From: Chloroflexus aggregans DSM 9485
GTDB taxonomy: Bacteria > Chloroflexota > Chloroflexia > Chloroflexales > Chloroflexaceae
NCBI RefSeq assembly: GCF_000021945.1
Contig: NC_011831.1
Location: 4,415,353 to 4,479,352, forward strand
Direction of reading: 5' to 3'
DNA length: 64,000 bases
This document shows positions 15,179 to 25,145 of the stretch, one piece after another. A model generated the notes under the pieces. The model was not told the DNA's origin. It ran no database searches and worked only from the letters and a program-made list of their open reading frames with translations. A program made the translations under genes and the position numbers. Numbering within the stretch: position 1 is the first letter of the stretch; the number at the start of each line of letters is the position of its first letter.

Positions 15179-15667
15179 ATGATCCGTTATGAGATTGCGG
15201 CGACGACGGTAACCACCGCGCCGCCGGAGCGGGTATTTGCCGTTCTTGACGATTTCAGTAATTGGCCGCGTTGGATGCCTTCTCTCGAACGAGTACGGAT
15301 TGAGTTACCGCCGAACGACCATCCGCGCCAAGGCTATCGTTTCAAACTGCATGGGATGTTTGTCCATGCCGAGATGGAAGTGATCGACTATACGCCACTG
15401 AGTCGCGCAACACGCTTTCGGATCAGTTTTCCACCGTTTCAAGGAATTAACCGCTGTCGGTTGGTCCCACTCGATGATGGACGTTACCGGATCGAGCGAC
15501 TCGATCAGCTCGAGTTGCCCGATCTGGTAGCGCACGTAATCGATGCAACGCAACGTAAACGTTTTGAACAGCTTGCTCTAGAATTTCTGCATGCTCTTCG
15601 TCGGGTCGTTGAGCAGACACCAAATGGAACCATCACCTCCTCTTCGCCAACTGGCCAATCAGATTGA
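15179..15667 (+). CDS. SRPBCC (START-like) domain protein
   Basis: 162 residues in a helix-grip pattern: an N-terminal strand (YEIAATTVTTAPPERVFAVLDDFSNWPRWMP), a long beta section and a C-terminal helix. This is the SRPBCC/polyketide-cyclase-like superfamily, which binds hydrophobic ligands. The ligand cannot be read from sequence. It follows pfkA by 43 bp with GAGGTG before the ATG, and may be co-transcribed. Confidence 0.75.
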   Translation: MIRYEIAATTVTTAPPERVFAVLDDFSNWPRWMPSLERVRIELPPNDHPRQGYRFKLHGMFVHAEMEVIDYTPLSRATRFRISFPPFQGINRCRLVPLDDGRYRIERLDQLELPDLVAHVIDATQRKRFEQLALEFLHALRRVVEQTPNGTITSSSPTGQSD

Positions 15668-15869
15668 GCAGGCCGGCTTTAGCGTGCCGGTGGCGATTGT
15701 GTTGCAAATCGTTGCACCGCTAGATGTGGTATGTAGTCAAGGCGCACAGGCTCTGCTGCCACTGGTGCGCGGTACCCGCTGGGCGGGTGTTGTTGAGTCG
15801 TTGACTATCCCCGAACATTGGCCGGCGCTGCGTGATCTCTTGTTAGCGCGCTTACAGGAACGAGGTTAA
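15624..15869 (+). CDS. small hypothetical protein overlapping the SRPBCC gene
   Basis: An 81-residue frame starting MEPSPPLRQL inside the last 44 bp of the SRPBCC gene. The composition is protein-like (amphipathic LANQIEQAGFSVPVAIVLQIVAPL and WPALRDLLLARLQ), but I recognise no family. An earlier start at 15591 is possible. The overlap suggests coupled expression. It could also be spurious. Confidence 0.5.
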   Translation: MEPSPPLRQLANQIEQAGFSVPVAIVLQIVAPLDVVCSQGAQALLPLVRGTRWAGVVESLTIPEHWPALRDLLLARLQERG

Positions 15870-15991: not shown

Positions 15992-16020
15992 TTGACAAAG
16001 CCGATCTGGTGGGTTACACT
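15992..16020 (+). promoter_or_regulatory. near-consensus promoter of the PxWL/MutL-like operon
   Basis: Consensus TTGACA (15992-15997), a 17-bp spacer and TACACT (16015-16020), 67 bp before the first gene. A 6-bp hairpin (TGCGGC/GCCGCA, about 15912-15932) upstream may end the preceding transcript. The rest of 15870-16086 shows no gene. Confidence 0.75.
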
Positions 16021-16086
16021 CAATACGATTGTAAGATTGTTCATCTCGAAGAAGGTTGCTTGTCGCGGGAGGAAAGGGAATACGGT

Positions 16087-16881
16087 ATGACCTTGCCGGC
16101 AATCTTTTTGCTAGTTGCGCTTGCGATTGTCGTAGCATTTGTCTGGCTTCATCACGCGCGCGTTCTCGCCGGTCGTTTGCCGGTGAGGCGGTCGTTGCCG
16201 GCGCTAGACGCATTGCGGATGGCGCTCGCTCGTAGTGCCGAAACGGGTCGTGCGGTTCATCTTTCTCCCGGTGCAAGTACAATCGGTGCCGGTGAAGGTC
16301 AACGGGCGAGTACGGCAGAGCTGCTTGCCGGTTTACAGGTGGTTCGGCAGGCTGGCGAACAGGCTGCGGCAAGTGGGTCGGCTGTTGTGATTAGCTCGGC
16401 TGACGCCGTTGCCTATTTTTCCTTGCGTGGCGCCATACGACAAGCGTACCGCGGAGTTGGTCAGCCGCAGGCGTTTGATCCGCGTCGGATCGAGCTGTGG
16501 GCGCATGCCGATCCGTTGGCGTATGCGGCGGCTGTGGCAGCGCACTATCATCGTGAGCCGTTGGAAGCCAGCACGATGGTTGGGGTGTTCGGACCTGAGG
16601 TCTTACTGGCCGCTGAGATTGGCGCCCAACAGCAGATTCCGCAAGTGTTAGGGAGTACCAATCCGGCATCGCTAGGTGTGATGTCTGTGGTTACGCCCTA
16701 TGTGCTGATCGGCGAAGAGATCTTCGTCACGGAAGCCTATTTGACAACTGCGTCTGCGCCACAGGCCCGTTTGCTTACGCATGACACGTTGCGTGTAACG
16801 GTGATCGGGTTGATGGTGCTGGCGTTTGGTTATGGTGTGATCCGAGCTGTATTCGGATTGCCGGCTTTGCCGGGGTGGTAA
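16087..16881 (+). CDS. DUF6754-like membrane-anchored protein
   Basis: The 264 residues have one N-terminal membrane segment (about 4-22), a soluble central domain (about 45-225) and one C-terminal membrane segment (about 238-256). The central domain has recurring G/A-rich helices (TAELLAGLQVVRQAGEQAAASGSAVV) and GVFGPEVLLAAEIGAQQQIPQVLGST. I associate this pattern with DUF6754 from memory; the function is unknown. The longer frame from 16009 is rejected because GGAAAGGG sits before the ATG at 16087 and the hydrophobic start follows directly. It is the first gene of a five-gene operon and is followed 4 bp later by the next. Confidence 0.7.
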   Translation: MTLPAIFLLVALAIVVAFVWLHHARVLAGRLPVRRSLPALDALRMALARSAETGRAVHLSPGASTIGAGEGQRASTAELLAGLQVVRQAGEQAAASGSAVVISSADAVAYFSLRGAIRQAYRGVGQPQAFDPRRIELWAHADPLAYAAAVAAHYHREPLEASTMVGVFGPEVLLAAEIGAQQQIPQVLGSTNPASLGVMSVVTPYVLIGEEIFVTEAYLTTASAPQARLLTHDTLRVTVIGLMVLAFGYGVIRAVFGLPALPGW

Positions 16882-16885
16882 GTGT

Positions 16886-17554
16886 ATGTCATCGCTATTG
16901 CGCAATCCTCGTCAGTTAATTGCGGTATTAATTGCCGGGGTGAGCGGGTTAATCGTACTCCTTGATTTTGTCGGCTCTGGCCCGGTTGTGAAAGCGCTGG
17001 CGATGGTGCTGGTGCAGTGGGCGGCACTCATTACAGCCTTTGCGGTCGTTATTGGGGCGGTAAGCGTCTTCAGTGCTCATCTCCGTCGTGTGCGTGCGCG
17101 CGCACCAGAAGCCGGTTATAGCCTTGTCTTGATCATCGGTATGGTGATCGTGATCGTGGCCGGTATCTTTTATCCAACTCGCACTGCCACGGGGTTGACC
17201 CTTCCGATGACGCTAGCCGCTCCGCCGATCCGTACCGTCTTTCGTCTGATCTATGAACCGCTGGCTGCCAGTTTGCTGGCATTGCTCGCTTTTTTTGCCC
17301 TCAGTGCTATGTTACGTGCTCTGCGCAGTGGACGGACTGAAGCGATTGTCGTTGTTAGCATAGCGCTGTTGGCTTTGGTGATCCAGTTGCCACCATTGAC
17401 CTTCATTCCTTTTATTGGCCAGATGGTACAGTGGCTGAATGACTATCTTGTAGCCGCCGGCGCACGTGGCCTGCTGTTGGGGTCGGCAATTGGTGCATTG
17501 ATCGCCGGCGTGCGTCTGCTGATTGGCTTTGATATGCCGTATGCCGATCGTTAA
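16886..17554 (+). CDS. hypothetical polytopic membrane protein
   Basis: 222 residues with about five or six hydrophobic segments separated by short charged loops (one reads HLRRVRARAPEAG). No family is recognised and no catalytic residues stand out. It starts 4 bp after the DUF6754-like gene and 31 bp before the giant repeat gene, so it belongs to the same operon and may form a membrane complex with its neighbours. Confidence 0.7.
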   Translation: MSSLLRNPRQLIAVLIAGVSGLIVLLDFVGSGPVVKALAMVLVQWAALITAFAVVIGAVSVFSAHLRRVRARAPEAGYSLVLIIGMVIVIVAGIFYPTRTATGLTLPMTLAAPPIRTVFRLIYEPLAASLLALLAFFALSAMLRALRSGRTEAIVVVSIALLALVIQLPPLTFIPFIGQMVQWLNDYLVAAGARGLLLGSAIGALIAGVRLLIGFDMPYADR

Positions 17555-17585
17555 GGGGATCGGCACCGGCGTTTGATGTGCCACT

Positions 17586-20500
17586 ATGGAACACTTACCG
17601 CCATGGCTTCGTAACGTACCGTTGCCACCGGCGCCGGATGAAGATGACTCAACTCCGGCATGGCTGCGTGGTATCGATAGCTTGACTCCCCCACCACCGC
17701 CGGCAGCGGCAGCACCACCGGATTGGCTGACCGCCGATGAACCGACGGCTGAAGCGACAAGTGTGCCAGACTGGTTGGCGGAGTTGCAGGCAGAGGTGAG
17801 CGATCCGCTGGCCGATGCTCAATCGGCAGCATGGCTTCGTGATGCCGATTCAGGCTCATCGGGAGAGGCTGTGCCACCGGTAGAGCCGCCGCTGACAACG
17901 AGTTCGCGCCTCCGTATGCCGATTGGACCAACCGATCTGCTGCGCAGTATCGGGTACGAAGAAGCGCTCGAACCGACATCAGAACCACCGCTAGAGCCAG
18001 AAGCACCGGTAGATGCAGATGTTGATACCGGTGTGCCTGATTGGTTGCGTGAATTGAGCGATGAAGAGATTACGGAGGCATTTGCTACTACGCCGTCCGA
18101 ACCATCTTTGTCGACGAGTGAGCCGGCAGCGGCAGTAGATTCGGTTTCTGAGCCGGCCCTTGATGACTGGCTGAAAGAGTTGGATCGGATCGTCCCTGAA
18201 ACTAGCTCGACTGATTGGTCAGCCGGTGTAGCTCCCGGTGACGAGACGGTCTTTTCCCCTGATGCACCGGCATGGTTGGACTCGGATCAATCCGCTGCGG
18301 GTGGCGCGTCTGCGTTTGATCTACCGCCATGGTTGCAAAATGTAGCCGGTGATGAGCCGCCGGTTGTCGCCGGCTCGGTACGGCTTGATCTACCGACATG
18401 GCTGCTCGATGACAACATTATTGCTTCCGATCCATCCACGACCACGCCACCGGTGGCACCGGATGCGCCTACCTTGTTGGCTGATAGCAATGCCGTATCA
18501 CCTGATACCGGTGCCGTTGATCGCGGTAATGCCTCGTGGTCGCCAGATGAAGGTGTCGCCGATGCTGAAGATGTTCCAACGTGGTTGTTAGAAGCCGAGC
18601 GCCAAGTCCTACCTCCTGCCGATGCTGACGCTGCCCCGGCCTGGTTGCAGGCGGAGGAGCCGGCCGCACCGACCAGCGACGTACCGGCGTGGTTGCGAAC
18701 GGAGGAGCCGACGGCGCCGACCAGCGACGTGCCGGTGTGGTTGCAGGCGGAGGAGCCGGCTGACGCTGCCCCGGCCTGGTTGCAGGCGGAAGAGCCGGCC
18801 GCACCGACCAGCGACGTACCGGCGTGGTTGCGGGCGGAGGAGCCGGCTGACGCTGCCCCGGCCTGGTTGCAGGCGGAAGAGCCGGCCGCACCGACCAGCG
18901 ACGTACCGGTGTGGTTGCAGGCGGAAGAGCCGGCTGACGCTGCCCCGGCCTGGTTGCAGGCGGAAGAGCCGGCCGCACCGACCAGCGACGTACCGGCGTG
19001 GTTGCAGGCGGAGGAGCCGGCTGACGCTGCCCCGGCCTGGTTGCGGGCGGAGGAGCCGGCCCGTGATACATCTAGTGAAATACCGACGTGGTTACGGGAA
19101 GCTGACGCCAGTGATCTTTCTGCTTGGGAGAAAACTGAACCGGCGCGAGCTAGTGGTTTAGATTGGTTGCAGGCGGAGGAGCCGGCTGACGCTGCCCCGG
19201 CCTGGTTGCAGGCGGAAGAGCCGGCCGCACCGACCAGCGACGTACCGGCGTGGTTGCGGGCGGAGGAGCCGGCTGACGCTGCCCCGGCCTGGTTGCAGGC
19301 GGAAGAGCCGGCCGCACCGACCAGCGACGTACCGGCGTGGTTGCGGACGGAAGAGCCGACGGCGCCGACCAGCGACGTACCGGCGTGGTTGCGGACGGAA
19401 GAGCCGACGGCGCCGACCAGCGACGTGCCGGCGTGGTTGCAGGCGGAGGAGCCGGCCGCACCGACCAGCGACGTACCGGCGTGGTTGCGGGCGGAGGAGC
19501 CGGCTGACGCTGCTCCGGCGTGGTTGCAGGCGGAGGAGCCGGCCGCACCGACCAGCGACGTGCCGGCGTGGTTGCAGGCGGAGGAGCCGGCCGCACCGAC
19601 CAGCGACGTGCCGGCGTGGTTGCGGGCGGAAGAGCCGACGGCGCCGACCAGCGACGTGCCGGCGTGGTTGCAGGCGGAGGAGCCGGCCCGTGATACATCT
19701 AGTGAAATACCGACGTGGTTACGGGAAGCTGACGCCAGTGATCTTTCTGCTTGGGAGAAAACTGAACCGGCGCGAGCTAGTGGTTTAGATTGGTTGCAGG
19801 CGGAGGAGCCGGCTGACGCTGCCCCGGCCTGGTTGCAGGCGGAGGAGCCGGCCGCACCGACCAGCGACGTACCGGCGTGGTTGCGGGCGGAGGAGCCGAC
19901 GGCGTCGACCAGCGACGTACCGGCGTGGTTGCGGGCGGAGGAGCCGACGGCGCCGACCAGCGACGTACCGGCGTGGTTGCGAACGGAAGAGCCACCGGCG
20001 TCGACCAGCGACGTACCGGCGTGGTTGCGGGCGGAGGAGCCGACGGCGCCGACCAGCGACGTACCGGCGTGGTTGCGGGCGGAGGAGCCGACGGCGCCGA
20101 CCAGCGACGTACCGGCGTGGTTGCGGGCGGAGGAGCCGACGGCGCCGACCAGCGACGTACCGGCGTGGTTGCGAACGGAAGAGCCACCGGCGTCGACCAG
20201 CGACGTACCGGCGTGGTTGCGGGCGGAGGAGCCGACGGCGCCGACCAGCGACGTACCGGCGTGGTTGCGGGCGGAGGAGCCGACGGCGCCGACCAGCGAC
20301 GTACCGGCGTGGTTGCGGGCGGAGGAGCCGACGGCGCCGACCAGCGACGTGCCGGCGTGGTTGCAGGCGGAAGAGCCGGCCGCACCGACCAGCGACGTAC
20401 CGGCGTGGTTGCGGGCGGAGGAGCCGACGGCGCCGACCAGCGACGTACCGGCGTGGTTGCGGGCGGAGGAGCCGACGGCGCCGACCAGCGACGTACCGGC

Positions 20501-22436
20501 GTGGTTGCGAACGGAAGAGCCGACGGCGCCGACCAGCGACGTGCCGGCGTGGTTACGGGCGGAAGAGCCGACGGCGCCGACCAGCGACGTACCGGCGTGG
20601 TTGCGGGCGGAAGAGCCGACGGCGCCGACCAGCGACGTACCGGCGTGGTTGCGGGCGGAAGAGCCGACGGCGCCGACCAGCGACGTACCGGCGTGGTTGC
20701 GGGCGGAGGAGCCGACGGCGCCGACCAGCGACGTGCCGGCGTGGTTGCGGGCGGAAGAGCCGACGGCGCCGACCAGCGACGTGCCGGCGTGGTTGCGGGC
20801 GGAAGAGCCGACGGCGCCGACCAGCGACGTACCGGCGTGGTTGCGGGCGGAAGAGCCGACGGCGCCGACCAGCGACGTACCGGCCTGGTTGCAGGCGGAA
20901 GAGCCGACGGCGCCGACCAGCGACGTGCCGGCGTGGTTGCAGGCGGAAGAGCCGGCCGCACCGACCAGCGACGTACCGGCGTGGTTGCGGGCGGAGGAGC
21001 CGACGGCGCCGACCAGCGACGTACCGGCGTGGTTACGGGCGGAAGAGCCGACGGCGCCGACCAGCGACGTACCGGCGTGGTTGCGGGCGGAAGAGCCGAC
21101 GGCGCCGACCAGCGACGTACCGGCGTGGTTGCGAGAATCTGGCGCGAGTACTGCTGATACACCTGATTGGCTCATCGGGGGTGAGCAAACTGAAGACCTT
21201 CCATGGTTACAGGCTGAACCGTCCGCGCTATCGGTGACTGCCGAACCGTCAACAACGACGAGTTCAAGCAGTGACGAATTCTTTAGTGGGGCCGAGTTAC
21301 CGCCATGGCTACGTGCTTCCACGGAACGCATTGTGGAGCCGGCGGCTACTCCATCCCTAAGTTGGCTACAACGTTTGAGTAGTCGTGAAGCGGAGCTGGA
21401 AGACGAAGCTAGTGCTCCTGAGGTTGTGGTGGTTAAACCACCGCTGCCGATGCCGGCTCCACGCACTCCTGATCAGGTGGCGGCAATGGCCCTCCTTGAA
21501 CGTTTGATCCAGTCGCCATTGCCACAACCGGTACCGGTCGAGCAACCGACAGTTGTTCGTCGCCGATTACCGAAACTCGAGCATTGGTTGGCGTGGGTCT
21601 TGTTGGTTGCCGTGCTCGTCAGCTTGCTGATCCCCGGCTTACCCAATCCGCTGATGGGCCAAGTGCAGCCTTCTCCGACAGCAATTGCGTTGAGCGAGCG
21701 ATTGACCGCATTGGGTAGCGATGATGTGGTGTTGGTGGCCTACGAGTGGGGTGCCCAGCGAGTTGCTGAGTTGCGACCACTTGAACAGGCGCTCTTCAAG
21801 CAACTAACAGTTGATCGCACAAAACTGATCATCGTTAGTACCGATCTTCAAGGAGCGATACTCGCATTCGACCAACTTGGGCCGTTGCGCGCTGCTGGCT
21901 ACAACAACGAAAATGGGGTTACCTTTGGTGGTCGCGATTACGTGCTTCTCGGCTATCGTCCCGGTGGTGAACTGGCGCTGCGCAGTATTGCCGGTGACTT
22001 GCGCGCCCAGTTGCGTCGTGATTATACCGGTCAAGATGCTACTGCCGGCCTATTGGCGACACGCCCCGATGGTTCGCCACGGGTCGAGACCCTCGCCGAT
22101 CTGGCAATGATCGTCGTTATGGCCGATCAAGTGCAGGATGTACAGGCGTGGATGGAACAGATCCACAGTGCTGCTCCTCAAGTACCGATTGCTTTCTTGC
22201 TCCCCCAAGAGGTCTATCCGCAAGTGCTGCCCTATCTGCGCTTACCTAATGTGTATGCGGTGGCCGGCCAGCGTGGTGCGGCTGAGTTACGTGCTGCGAG
22301 CGGAACTGATGAAGTGGTCTCCACAATGGTGGCAAATCAGACGTGGGCTACGATCATGTTCGTGATCGTGATGATGGTTGGTGGTGTGATTGTCATTATT
22401 GAGCGGTTGCGGCGCCCAGCCCGCGGGAGCGCATGA
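17586..22436 (+). CDS. giant PxWL-repeat protein with membrane-anchored C-terminal domain
   Basis: 1616 residues. Residues 1-345 are acidic and disordered-looking, with diverged motifs of the form P/D-x-W-L (PPWLRN, TPAWLRG, VPDWLAE, DDWLKE). Residues about 348-1180 are about 53 near-identical repeats of 16 residues (VPAWLRAEEPTAPTSD) or 13 residues (AEEPADAAPAWLQ). Two more WL copies follow. A membrane segment at about 1333-1352 is preceded by RRRLPK. A soluble Rossmann-like domain spans about 1365-1580, and a second membrane segment lies at about 1586-1608, followed by ERLRRP. Charge rules put the repeats in the cytoplasm and the soluble domain outside. It may be a multivalent scaffold whose WL motifs bind a partner. 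The family is not recognised. Confidence 0.8.
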   Translation: MEHLPPWLRNVPLPPAPDEDDSTPAWLRGIDSLTPPPPPAAAAPPDWLTADEPTAEATSVPDWLAELQAEVSDPLADAQSAAWLRDADSGSSGEAVPPVEPPLTTSSRLRMPIGPTDLLRSIGYEEALEPTSEPPLEPEAPVDADVDTGVPDWLRELSDEEITEAFATTPSEPSLSTSEPAAAVDSVSEPALDDWLKELDRIVPETSSTDWSAGVAPGDETVFSPDAPAWLDSDQSAAGGASAFDLPPWLQNVAGDEPPVVAGSVRLDLPTWLLDDNIIASDPSTTTPPVAPDAPTLLADSNAVSPDTGAVDRGNASWSPDEGVADAEDVPTWLLEAERQVLPPADADAAPAWLQAEEPAAPTSDVPAWLRTEEPTAPTSDVPVWLQAEEPADAAPAWLQAEEPAAPTSDVPAWLRAEEPADAAPAWLQAEEPAAPTSDVPVWLQAEEPADAAPAWLQAEEPAAPTSDVPAWLQAEEPADAAPAWLRAEEPARDTSSEIPTWLREADASDLSAWEKTEPARASGLDWLQAEEPADAAPAWLQAEEPAAPTSDVPAWLRAEEPADAAPAWLQAEEPAAPTSDVPAWLRTEEPTAPTSDVPAWLRTEEPTAPTSDVPAWLQAEEPAAPTSDVPAWLRAEEPADAAPAWLQAEEPAAPTSDVPAWLQAEEPAAPTSDVPAWLRAEEPTAPTSDVPAWLQAEEPARDTSSEIPTWLREADASDLSAWEKTEPARASGLDWLQAEEPADAAPAWLQAEEPAAPTSDVPAWLRAEEPTASTSDVPAWLRAEEPTAPTSDVPAWLRTEEPPASTSDVPAWLRAEEPTAPTSDVPAWLRAEEPTAPTSDVPAWLRAEEPTAPTSDVPAWLRTEEPPASTSDVPAWLRAEEPTAPTSDVPAWLRAEEPTAPTSDVPAWLRAEEPTAPTSDVPAWLQAEEPAAPTSDVPAWLRAEEPTAPTSDVPAWLRAEEPTAPTSDVPAWLRTEEPTAPTSDVPAWLRAEEPTAPTSDVPAWLRAEEPTAPTSDVPAWLRAEEPTAPTSDVPAWLRAEEPTAPTSDVPAWLRAEEPTAPTSDVPAWLRAEEPTAPTSDVPAWLRAEEPTAPTSDVPAWLQAEEPTAPTSDVPAWLQAEEPAAPTSDVPAWLRAEEPTAPTSDVPAWLRAEEPTAPTSDVPAWLRAEEPTAPTSDVPAWLRESGASTADTPDWLIGGEQTEDLPWLQAEPSALSVTAEPSTTTSSSSDEFFSGAELPPWLRASTERIVEPAATPSLSWLQRLSSREAELEDEASAPEVVVVKPPLPMPAPRTPDQVAAMALLERLIQSPLPQPVPVEQPTVVRRRLPKLEHWLAWVLLVAVLVSLLIPGLPNPLMGQVQPSPTAIALSERLTALGSDDVVLVAYEWGAQRVAELRPLEQALFKQLTVDRTKLIIVSTDLQGAILAFDQLGPLRAAGYNNENGVTFGGRDYVLLGYRPGGELALRSIAGDLRAQLRRDYTGQDATAGLLATRPDGSPRVETLADLAMIVVMADQVQDVQAWMEQIHSAAPQVPIAFLLPQEVYPQVLPYLRLPNVYAVAGQRGAAELRAASGTDEVVSTMVANQTWATIMFVIVMMVGGVIVIIERLRRPARGSA
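18629..21130 (+). repeat. 48-bp and 39-bp tandem repeat array inside the PxWL gene
   Basis: About 53 units by my count. The 3' half (19829-21130) is almost entirely 48-bp units; the 5' half mixes 48-bp and 39-bp units. A higher-order block containing an ARDTSSEIPTWL segment occurs twice, 627 bp apart (from 19061 and from 19688). Unit lengths are multiples of 3, so length changes keep the frame. Units differ at few, often synonymous sites, which indicates recent expansion or homogenisation. Confidence 0.95.
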
Positions 22437-23083
22437 TGGATCTGGCAATCAATCTGATCCCGGTGTTGCTGACGCTGCTCGTGTTTAGCCGTCTGTTCGG
22501 CGATACACCGGCCTTCCGGCTTGTACAGTATCTGTTTGTTGGTGTAGCGTTAGGCTACGCGGTAGTTGTAATCTACCATCAGGTGCTGCGCCCGGCAGTC
22601 GTTGATCTTTTGTTAGCTAGTGGGCAGCCTGGTTTGGTGACGTTGCGTCTCATCCCATTTGTATTAGCCGCTCTCTTGCTGACGCGCGTTAGCGGTCAAC
22701 AAACGAATTCATGGCTGGCTAATCTGCCGCTCGCGTTAGTTTTTGGTGTTGGAGCGGCACTGGTGGTGGGCGGTGCATTGATCGGTACGATCATGCCTCA
22801 AGTCCTCGATGCCACTCGGCTTGATCTGAGTGCTCCGGCTGCAATACTGGGTAGTCTTGTTCTGTTTATCGGTTCTATCGTGACTCTGCTCTCGTTTTCC
22901 TTTACTCGGTCGGCCGATCCACGCCGCCAACGCTGGCTCGATAGCACCGCACGAGTAGGTCGTTGGTTCCTCCTGATTGCATTTGGTTTCTTTTTGGCCG
23001 GGAATGTGAGTTCTTATCTTGCTGCACTGAACGAACGGTTGTTGTTCGTTGTTGAGTGGTTTCGGGCGGTGCTGGGGGCGTAA
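22433..23083 (+). CDS. hypothetical polytopic membrane protein
   Basis: 216 residues with about six hydrophobic segments and few charged residues (one basic loop reads RSADPRRQRWLD). It overlaps the end of the giant repeat gene by 4 bp (ATGA), so the two are probably translated together. The MutL-like gene starts 10 bp later. No family is recognised; the context suggests a membrane partner in the same complex. Confidence 0.7.
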   Translation: MMDLAINLIPVLLTLLVFSRLFGDTPAFRLVQYLFVGVALGYAVVVIYHQVLRPAVVDLLLASGQPGLVTLRLIPFVLAALLLTRVSGQQTNSWLANLPLALVFGVGAALVVGGALIGTIMPQVLDATRLDLSAPAAILGSLVLFIGSIVTLLSFSFTRSADPRRQRWLDSTARVGRWFLLIAFGFFLAGNVSSYLAALNERLLFVVEWFRAVLGA

Positions 23084-23092
23084 GGGAGAGGT

Positions 23093-24925
23093 ATGTCTAC
23101 AGTGCGTGCTGTATTGGTAGTCGAGATCGGGAGTGTTACGACCCGCGTGTCGCTGATCGATCAGGTCGATGGCGAAAGCCGTTTGATCGGTCAAGCCGAG
23201 ACACTTACAAGCTGTGAATTGCCGTACCAAAATATCTTCTTCGCTATCCAAGAAGCAACAGCGCAGATTGCCGATCTCACCAGCCGTCAGCTCCTGCATG
23301 ATGGCCGTTTATTGATGCCCCAGACGATTGCCGGTGATGGGATTGATGCTGTTGTGGTTGTTGCATCAGCCCTTGAACCATTACGGGTGGTGGTGGCAGC
23401 GATTGCGGCTGATGTATCGGCCCGCAGTGCGTTGCACGCGGTACAGGGTGTGCCTGGCGTCGTGTTGGCGGTGATAACCCTCGATGATACGTTGGGGCAC
23501 CCGCCGGCTGTCGAAGATCGGTCGTGGCTCGAACGCCAACTCGAGACGCTCTTACCACTCTCACCTGATGTGATTGTTGTGACCGGGGGTGTGGAAGGTG
23601 GTGCGACGGATTCGGTCATACGGTTGGTGCAATTGGTGAATTTGGTATTGGCGTTCAAGCAGACCACCGGTGAACCGTTACCCACTATCGTTTATGCCGG
23701 GAATACTGCAGCCCAAGCGCAAGTGCAGGTGGCGCTTGCAGAGTACAAGAACAACGTTCTGATGGTCGCCAATGTGCGCCCGGAACTTGAACGCGAAGTG
23801 CTCGCGCCGCTACGTCGGGCACTGCTCGCCCGCTATGCTCGTCAGTTGACCGATCTGCCCGGTCTGAACGCATTGACGGTGGAGCATACGACGTTGCATA
23901 CCGTGGTTGAGGCTCAGTATCTGATGACCCGTTTCTGGGCTGAGCGACAACGGCAACCGGTGTTGTATGTGGATGTGGGGGCAACGACGACCACTCTGAT
24001 CGCCGCAGCTCCCGATCAAGTTCACGCGGCGATCCACGGTGTGCGTGGTACGGCCTATGGCGCAGCCCACGTGCTCAGTGAAATAGGTCCTGCCGCCCTG
24101 GCGCGCTGGTTGCCATTCGCAATGACCGAACAGGAACTGACCGAGCGCGTGCTCAATCGAGTGCTGCGACCGCAGACGATACCTGCTACACGTGAAGAAT
24201 GTTATCTTGATCTCGCGCTTACCCGTGCAGTACTGACGCTCGGAATGGCTGCTTTGCGTGATGAGGCGCCGACGTTGGAGTATAGCTATGTGATCGCGAG
24301 TGGTGGGGCACTGATCCACGCACCGCATCCCGGTATGGCCCTGTTGGCTTTGCTCGATGGGTTGCAGCCGGCTAATGAACTACCCGGTTTGCTCTTGCAC
24401 GTTCACCTCGATACGTTTGGTTTGATGTCGGTCTGCGGTGGTCTAGCCACGTTACATCCTGAAGCGGCCCTTTCCGTCTTCGATCACGATTTGCTGTTGA
24501 ATACCCCGTTGGCGACGTGTATCGTGTTGCAAGGGAGTGGCCGGCCCGGTGAACTGGTCGCCGAGGTCGAACTAATTGCAGTAGGTGGCGACACCGAGTA
24601 CGCACAGGTATGTTCGGGTGATCTGGTTCGTTTGCCGCTACCGATTGGCCGGTACGCGCAGGTCAAAGTCAAACTAACTCCCGGTGTGCGGGTAGGCCGT
24701 GATGTTTCCGGTGAGCCGGTAGCGAGTGATCCGGCGGAAGTGCCCGGTAGCCTCCTCGGACTGATCATCGATGCCCGTGGCCGTCCGTTATCGCTTCCTG
24801 AAGATGGTGCTGAGCGGCGACGGTTGCTGTGGTCGTGGTTACGAGCGTTGGACGCGGAACGGAGCGATAGTCCTTACCCTGAACCGGAAATAGCCTTACC
24901 CGAACATCGAGGCGTTGGAGGATAA
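23093..24925 (+). CDS. MutL-like (glutamate mutase accessory family) actin-fold ATPase
   Basis: 610 residues with the ATPase motifs of the actin/Hsp70/hexokinase fold: a phosphate-1-like VEIGSVTTRVSLID at 10-23 (Glu where Asp is usual), phosphate-2 DVGATTTT at about 294 and an adenosine motif ASGGALIHAP near 403. The layout matches the MutL family, named for a gene beside glutamate mutase, but no mutase genes lie here. It is longer than a typical MutL of about 460 residues, with a C-terminal extension of about 150 residues of beta-rich sequence. GGGAGAGG precedes the ATG. As the last gene of the operon with three membrane proteins and the PxWL scaffold, it may power or polymerise with that complex. 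The role is inferred. Confidence 0.75.
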   Translation: MSTVRAVLVVEIGSVTTRVSLIDQVDGESRLIGQAETLTSCELPYQNIFFAIQEATAQIADLTSRQLLHDGRLLMPQTIAGDGIDAVVVVASALEPLRVVVAAIAADVSARSALHAVQGVPGVVLAVITLDDTLGHPPAVEDRSWLERQLETLLPLSPDVIVVTGGVEGGATDSVIRLVQLVNLVLAFKQTTGEPLPTIVYAGNTAAQAQVQVALAEYKNNVLMVANVRPELEREVLAPLRRALLARYARQLTDLPGLNALTVEHTTLHTVVEAQYLMTRFWAERQRQPVLYVDVGATTTTLIAAAPDQVHAAIHGVRGTAYGAAHVLSEIGPAALARWLPFAMTEQELTERVLNRVLRPQTIPATREECYLDLALTRAVLTLGMAALRDEAPTLEYSYVIASGGALIHAPHPGMALLALLDGLQPANELPGLLLHVHLDTFGLMSVCGGLATLHPEAALSVFDHDLLLNTPLATCIVLQGSGRPGELVAEVELIAVGGDTEYAQVCSGDLVRLPLPIGRYAQVKVKLTPGVRVGRDVSGEPVASDPAEVPGSLLGLIIDARGRPLSLPEDGAERRRLLWSWLRALDAERSDSPYPEPEIALPEHRGVGG

Positions 24926-24974
24926 AGTAAGTTAGTGTGGCCTGTGCCTATCCGCCGTGTGCCTTTGGTCAAGA

Positions 24975-25145
24975 CACGGATAGAACGGATAGCCACGGAT
25001 GGTTCAGAATGGCGCGATAGATCCGTTGCAATCCGTGTACTCTTGGTCAGACCACGGATAGAACGGATAGAACGGATAGCCACGGATGGTTCAGAATGGC
25101 GCGATCCGTGACCATCCGTCAGATCCGTCGCAATCCGTGTGCTCT
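24975..25145. repeat. intergenic ACGGAT-type direct repeats
   Basis: Two copies of a unit beginning CACGGATAGAACGGATAGCC start at 24975 and 25053, the second carrying an extra 9-bp AGAACGGAT. Each continues through GGTTCAGAATGGCGCGAT to a CAATCCGTGT/CTCTT end. ACGGAT and ATCCGT occur many times in both orientations, so the region can fold. It fills the gap between the convergent MutL-like gene and korB and may also act as a terminator. Confidence 0.7.

Follow-up and report, generated by a model that had tools for sequence, protein, structure and literature searches.

What do the membrane proteins and the ATPase encoded by one gene cluster of Chloroflexus aggregans DSM 9485 do together, and does this cluster hold all the parts of the system to which they belong? 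We analysed a window of 64,000 nucleotides from the genome of this bacterium, which comprises 4.68 Mb on one contig. An earlier note had described five tightly packed genes here, and both their coordinates and the gaps between them (4, 31, -4 and 9 bp) were reproduced. All five lie on the forward strand and are referred to below as A (16087–16881), B (16886–17554), C (17586–22436), D (22433–23083) and E (23093–24925). The ATG at 16087, which stands behind a good ribosome-binding site (GGAGGAAAGGG), is the more likely start of gene A; the alternative GTG at 16009 is less likely because it overlaps the −10 box of a promoter-like sequence (TTGACA-17-TACACT, 15992–16020, forward strand). That site is present as the note had said and matches 10 of 12 consensus positions, but it is weak evidence for a promoter, sites of this type occurring at chance level (2 found against 2.7 expected). 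A further conserved gene, Z (15624–15869, forward strand), is found immediately 5′ of A and encodes a helical protein of approximately 81 amino acids.

Gene A proved to be a member of DUF6754 (PF20539), as had been supposed, with a score of 92.8 bits where the cut-off is 27. Its product is modelled as a helix, a Rossmann-like domain and a second helix (pLDDT 94.8). The mean number of K+R residues is 3.4 after TM1 compared with 0.9 before it, and this charge pattern predicts that the Rossmann-like domain lies on the cytoplasmic side. Each of the two polytopic proteins that the note had recognised, B and D, has approximately six predicted TM segments; the idea that they are paralogues was rejected (hhalign probability 1%). 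The topology of C is predicted to be opposite to that of A, the charge pattern placing its repeat-bearing tail inside and its Rossmann-like domain (21675–22301; AF2 pLDDT 88), which is flanked by two TM helices, outside. Fold searches with the domains of A and C returned only generic Rossmann matches; Foldseek gave none with an E of 0.001 or better, and the RCK/TrkA-N entries, with Z of approximately 8 to 9.7, were tied with other Rossmann folds. Searching the PDB by sequence gave no convincing relative of E, A or C.

The presence of two six-TM proteins and of Rossmann-like domains on both faces of the membrane, and the generic likeness of these domains to RCK/TrkA-N among other Rossmann folds, could point to a solute or lipid transporter formed by A-B-C-D and energised or gated by E, in which the Rossmann-like domains (outer in C, inner in A) would bind a substrate or regulator. 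We regard this as unlikely, given that B and D matched no transporter family above cut-off, that the RCK scores are shared with many other Rossmann folds, and that we know of no actin-fold ATPase acting as a transporter motor.

E had been assigned to the MutL family, and it does match PF13941 (236 bits, cut-off 27) over residues 7–467; this is the single MutL match in the genome. The family name comes from glutamate mutase, for which GlmL is thought to be a reactivase. When scored against the GlmL equivalog NF040745, E reached 66.8 bits where the cut-off is 475, and the tested members of the E family from other phyla were also below the GlmL and glmL_fam cut-offs. In line with the note's statement that glutamate mutase genes are absent, PF06368 had no match in the window genome and none over cut-off in 65 genomes of the class. 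The mutase link was probed further with PF09043 and PF01642, and by tblastn of methylmalonyl-CoA mutase over 155 loci; the PF09043 search shows little, having given no match in any control either. Mutase-like DNA was found near only three of the 155 loci, in a divergent neighbouring operon. At these Anaerolineae-type loci (L038, L039 and L046) the operon encodes the B12 subunit of methylmalonyl-CoA mutase and a MeaB-like GTPase.

Taken with the profile match and the methylmalonyl-CoA mutase genes present in the window genome, these three loci would suit a reading in which E is the reactivase of a B12-dependent mutase encoded elsewhere and its linkage to A-D is incidental. This is very improbable indeed: E lies far under the GlmL cut-off and is constantly linked with membrane genes, glutamate mutase gave no match over cut-off in the 65 class genomes, and the few loci with mutase-like DNA already have a MeaB-like protein, which is the usual partner of methylmalonyl-CoA mutase. 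The Pfam name may mislead for E.

An extra C-terminal domain of E contains an almost invariant D-[AG]-R-x-R-P motif (IIDARGRPL in the window protein). We examined the phosphate-1 (DxGSxxT), phosphate-2 (DxG) and adenosine (GG) motifs of the actin fold. Outside Chloroflexota the sequences DCGSTTTK and VDIGGATTD are well conserved, the first Asp being present in 81 of 82 proteins. Within Chloroflexota, the phosphate-1 Asp has become Glu in 21 of 59 proteins, that of the window included, and the Asp with which the phosphate-2 motif usually ends in other phyla is lost; because of this drift, ATP hydrolysis by Chloroflexota E is not certain. Short direct repeats (ACGGATAGA and longer units) occupy positions 24926–25144, directly 3′ of E, and since the window protein is without the basic RRxWFGRRK-type C-terminal tail of three sister species, they may have replaced it.

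The note had proposed co-occurrence of the five families across Chloroflexota as a check on the system, and this held. In a sample of 60 loci from across the phylum, distant classes included, the order and strand of A-B-C-D-E are kept in nearly all. Both DUF6754 and full-length MutL are encoded by 52 of 100 class genomes, with one having DUF6754 only, three MutL only and 44 neither (Fisher p ~1e-23, a value that is too small given the relatedness of the genomes). Genes of the Z family, encoding helical proteins of approximately 80 amino acids, stand directly before A in approximately 40 loci. In classes other than that of the window genome, a further gene, F (approximately 350 amino acids), lies directly 3′ of E. 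F gave weak barrel-sandwich and KOW matches, which are below the Pfam cut-offs in the member shown, and, when compared with the PDB by sequence, mainly matches to KOW proteins and over short stretches. The F gene of the window genome is unlinked to the operon (genome positions 1226267–1227349), where it adjoins a response-regulator gene and is near ATP synthase genes. Across the Chloroflexales loci L179, L180, L181 and L189, F lies outside the cluster, next to response-regulator genes, with ATP synthase genes nearby in three genomes. A single-TM, Thr/Pro-rich protein of approximately 190 amino acids is encoded 3′ of F in 14 Anaerolineae-type loci (L038–L046 and L070–L074).

Scanning 84,980 species with a profile of E gave at least 593 pattern matches, at least 574 of which encode relatives, and the best 80 loci of these relatives were compared across phyla. 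Their source phyla include Chloroflexota, Armatimonadota, Planctomycetota, Cloacimonadota, Eisenbacteria, Zixibacteria, Poribacteria, Edwardsbacteria, WOR-3, Bdellovibrionota and Bacillota. The set of Z, A-D, E and F is found again in Armatimonadota, Planctomycetota, Zixibacteria, Bdellovibrionota and Bacillota, among others, and the order outside Chloroflexota is often Z-E-F-A-B-C-D. In these phyla C is a tail-less protein of approximately 280 amino acids (TM, outer domain, TM), and A appears by eye to have an N-terminal signal peptide and an Fn3-like ectodomain on the outer side, for which a Pfam search gave no match. Armatimonadota have A-B-C, often with Z, located apart from E, and full-length MutL was found there in 20 of 20 genomes with DUF6754 compared with 4 of 14 without it. 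Such joint inheritance of unlinked genes is the best indication that the parts function together. In a quick tree of E, a single branch with support 100 sets the Chloroflexota proteins apart, in keeping with ancient vertical descent. The existence of a Z-A-B-C-D-E-F module is well supported.

Some loci carry duplicated parts: E, F and Z are each present twice within one cluster at the Symbiobacterium-type loci L156 and L172, and L134 has two A-B-C-D sets, which hints at paired or heteromeric forms. A gcvPB-like gene (glycine decarboxylase subunit 2) is positioned 5′ of Z-E-F, adjacent or a few kb away, in ten loci from several phyla (L128, L136, L141, L144, L152, L157 and L173 among them). In addition, a small membrane protein of approximately 150 amino acids adjoins Z or A at L101, L104, L134, L135, L145, L151, L156 and L168, and is possibly an eighth member of the module outside Chloroflexota. 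These two are the clear recurrent neighbours outside that phylum, and neither points to a function.

The distribution of the module also bears on whether it could have a part in gliding, in the growth of filaments or in cell-cell connection among filamentous Chloroflexota. It is common in Chloroflexales, and no genes are known for the gliding and the septal channels of these bacteria (PMC7332563). However, the module is also found in Armatimonadota, Planctomycetota, Cloacimonadota and other phyla where such traits are not general, and we consider a role of this kind very unlikely.

We turn now to the tail of C. A tandem array of 52.3 copies of a 48-bp unit (18636–21133, forward strand; TRF) encodes the main PxWL repeats. 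Where the note had given approximately 53 tryptophan-leucine repeats, the protein as a whole has 62 PxW[LM] and 70 W[LM] motifs, and 41 of the PxW[LM] spacings are of 16 residues. The tail is strongly acidic (253 D+E compared with 57 K+R), and the paired-PxWL pattern clusters in the window genome only in gene C. An antisense ORF of 1059 amino acids (18287–21466, reverse strand) is purely a shadow of this array. Most Chloroflexota C proteins have one or two zinc ribbons at the N-terminus followed by PxWL linkers; those of Chloroflexaceae are without the zinc ribbon and have expanded repeats, the number of PxWL copies within the genus being 62, 63, 49 and 19. Four loci have PxWL in the tail of E itself. 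Fewer than two PxWL occur at five Chloroflexota loci that do have the core and E. Outside Chloroflexota the tail was seen in none of 36 loci. It is thus a Chloroflexota addition to the module, which C lacks in every other phylum seen, and as the system exists there without it, the tail cannot define the system.

A number of Chloroflexota lineages (families f7 and f10, Ktedonobacteria-type genomes and two genomes of family f3) have E and no core. Their loci are without A, B, D and the outer domain of C, and encode a separate zinc-ribbon/PxWL protein, several of which have a C-terminal TM or amphipathic end; DUF6754 gave no match in the three Ktedonobacteria-type genomes checked. The zinc-ribbon/PxWL gene is kept directly 5′ of E in nine of ten loci without A-D, a figure obtained by manual reading, with five cut contigs set aside and L185, which is beyond the automatic distance limit, added. 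The exception, L159, keeps E and F and has neither A-D nor the tail nearby. Since the tail is retained beside E where A-D are lost, it goes with E (and F) and not with A-B-D, and offers an example from nature of repeated motifs that follow one partner after the rest of the complex has been lost.

The copy number differs widely between close species, DNA repeats expand easily, and other phyla have no tail, all of which would be accommodated by a neutral or selfish expansion of the array, the membrane anchor being the one part of C that counts. Such an explanation concerns the tail only and is compatible with any other reading of the module. We judge it somewhat unlikely, as the motif, on linkers that vary, is still found through most of Chloroflexota and PxWL is kept next to E after the loss of A-D. 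It can be seen that the note was right in outline, in that there is a membrane-associated module with an ATPase of the actin-fold family and a cytoplasmic PxWL tail; its part list was incomplete, missing Z and F from a module of at least seven parts, and the tie of the tail to E was overlooked.

The reading that we favour, at somewhat less than an even chance, is that Z-A-B-C-D-E-F form an ancient, undescribed envelope complex with an actin-fold ATPase working on it, to which a multivalent cytoplasmic docking tail was added in Chloroflexota. Its computed basis is a set of linked or co-inherited genes encoding two six-TM proteins, two TM-anchored Rossmann-like proteins, the MutL-family protein E, and F. 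E would switch with its nucleotide state, dock, with F as adaptor, on A-B-C-D from the cytoplasmic side, and drive or gate work across the membrane, which might be assembly, transport or force. The Chloroflexota tail, usually a zinc ribbon plus PxWL, may act as a multivalent docking strip that raises the local concentration of E or its client at the membrane, and would be functionally paired with E/F rather than with A-B-D. Against this reading stand the drifted nucleotide motifs of Chloroflexota E, the lack of a specific fold match for A and C, and the arrangement at L159; docking of E on PxWL is further opposed by the E proteins of other phyla, which have no such tail, and by the five Chloroflexota loci with core and E and fewer than two PxWL. 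Somewhat less probable is the broader proposal of an unnamed, phylum-spanning class of actin-fold-driven envelope machines, whose Chloroflexota branch would have gained a multivalent PxWL strip, tethered to the membrane, for recruiting the ATPase or its cargo, perhaps into a membrane-bound condensate.

Most of the sampled Armatimonadota have the module, which is also common in Chloroflexota; for this membrane ATPase system, which has at least seven parts and is found in many phyla, we came across no name or assigned function. A literature search on DUF6754, PF20539 and PF13941, most subscription journals being outside its reach, returned no paper. Given this result, the failure of E to reach the GlmL cut-off and the absence of glutamate mutase, we rate it an undescribed kind of system. 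As a defined module, it is directly testable by knockout and pull-down.

Comparison with known systems places the module as follows. Gene A belongs to DUF6754 (PF20539), a family without a described function. E resembles the MutL/GlmL reactivase family (PF13941; NF040745, TIGR01319) in matching PF13941 over its whole length, but differs in its extra C-terminal domain, its membrane partners and the lack of a glutamate mutase. The weak matches of F recall RnfC/NqrA-type barrel-sandwich domains and KOW domains, whereas no redox partner genes are seen. In PilM-PilN and FtsA, an actin-fold protein docks on a short peptide of a membrane protein. The module contains no recognised genes for pili, secretion or division and membership is not claimed; by analogy only, it shares with these systems an actin-fold protein in the cytoplasm, neighbouring membrane proteins whose cytoplasmic tails are disordered, and polytopic partners.
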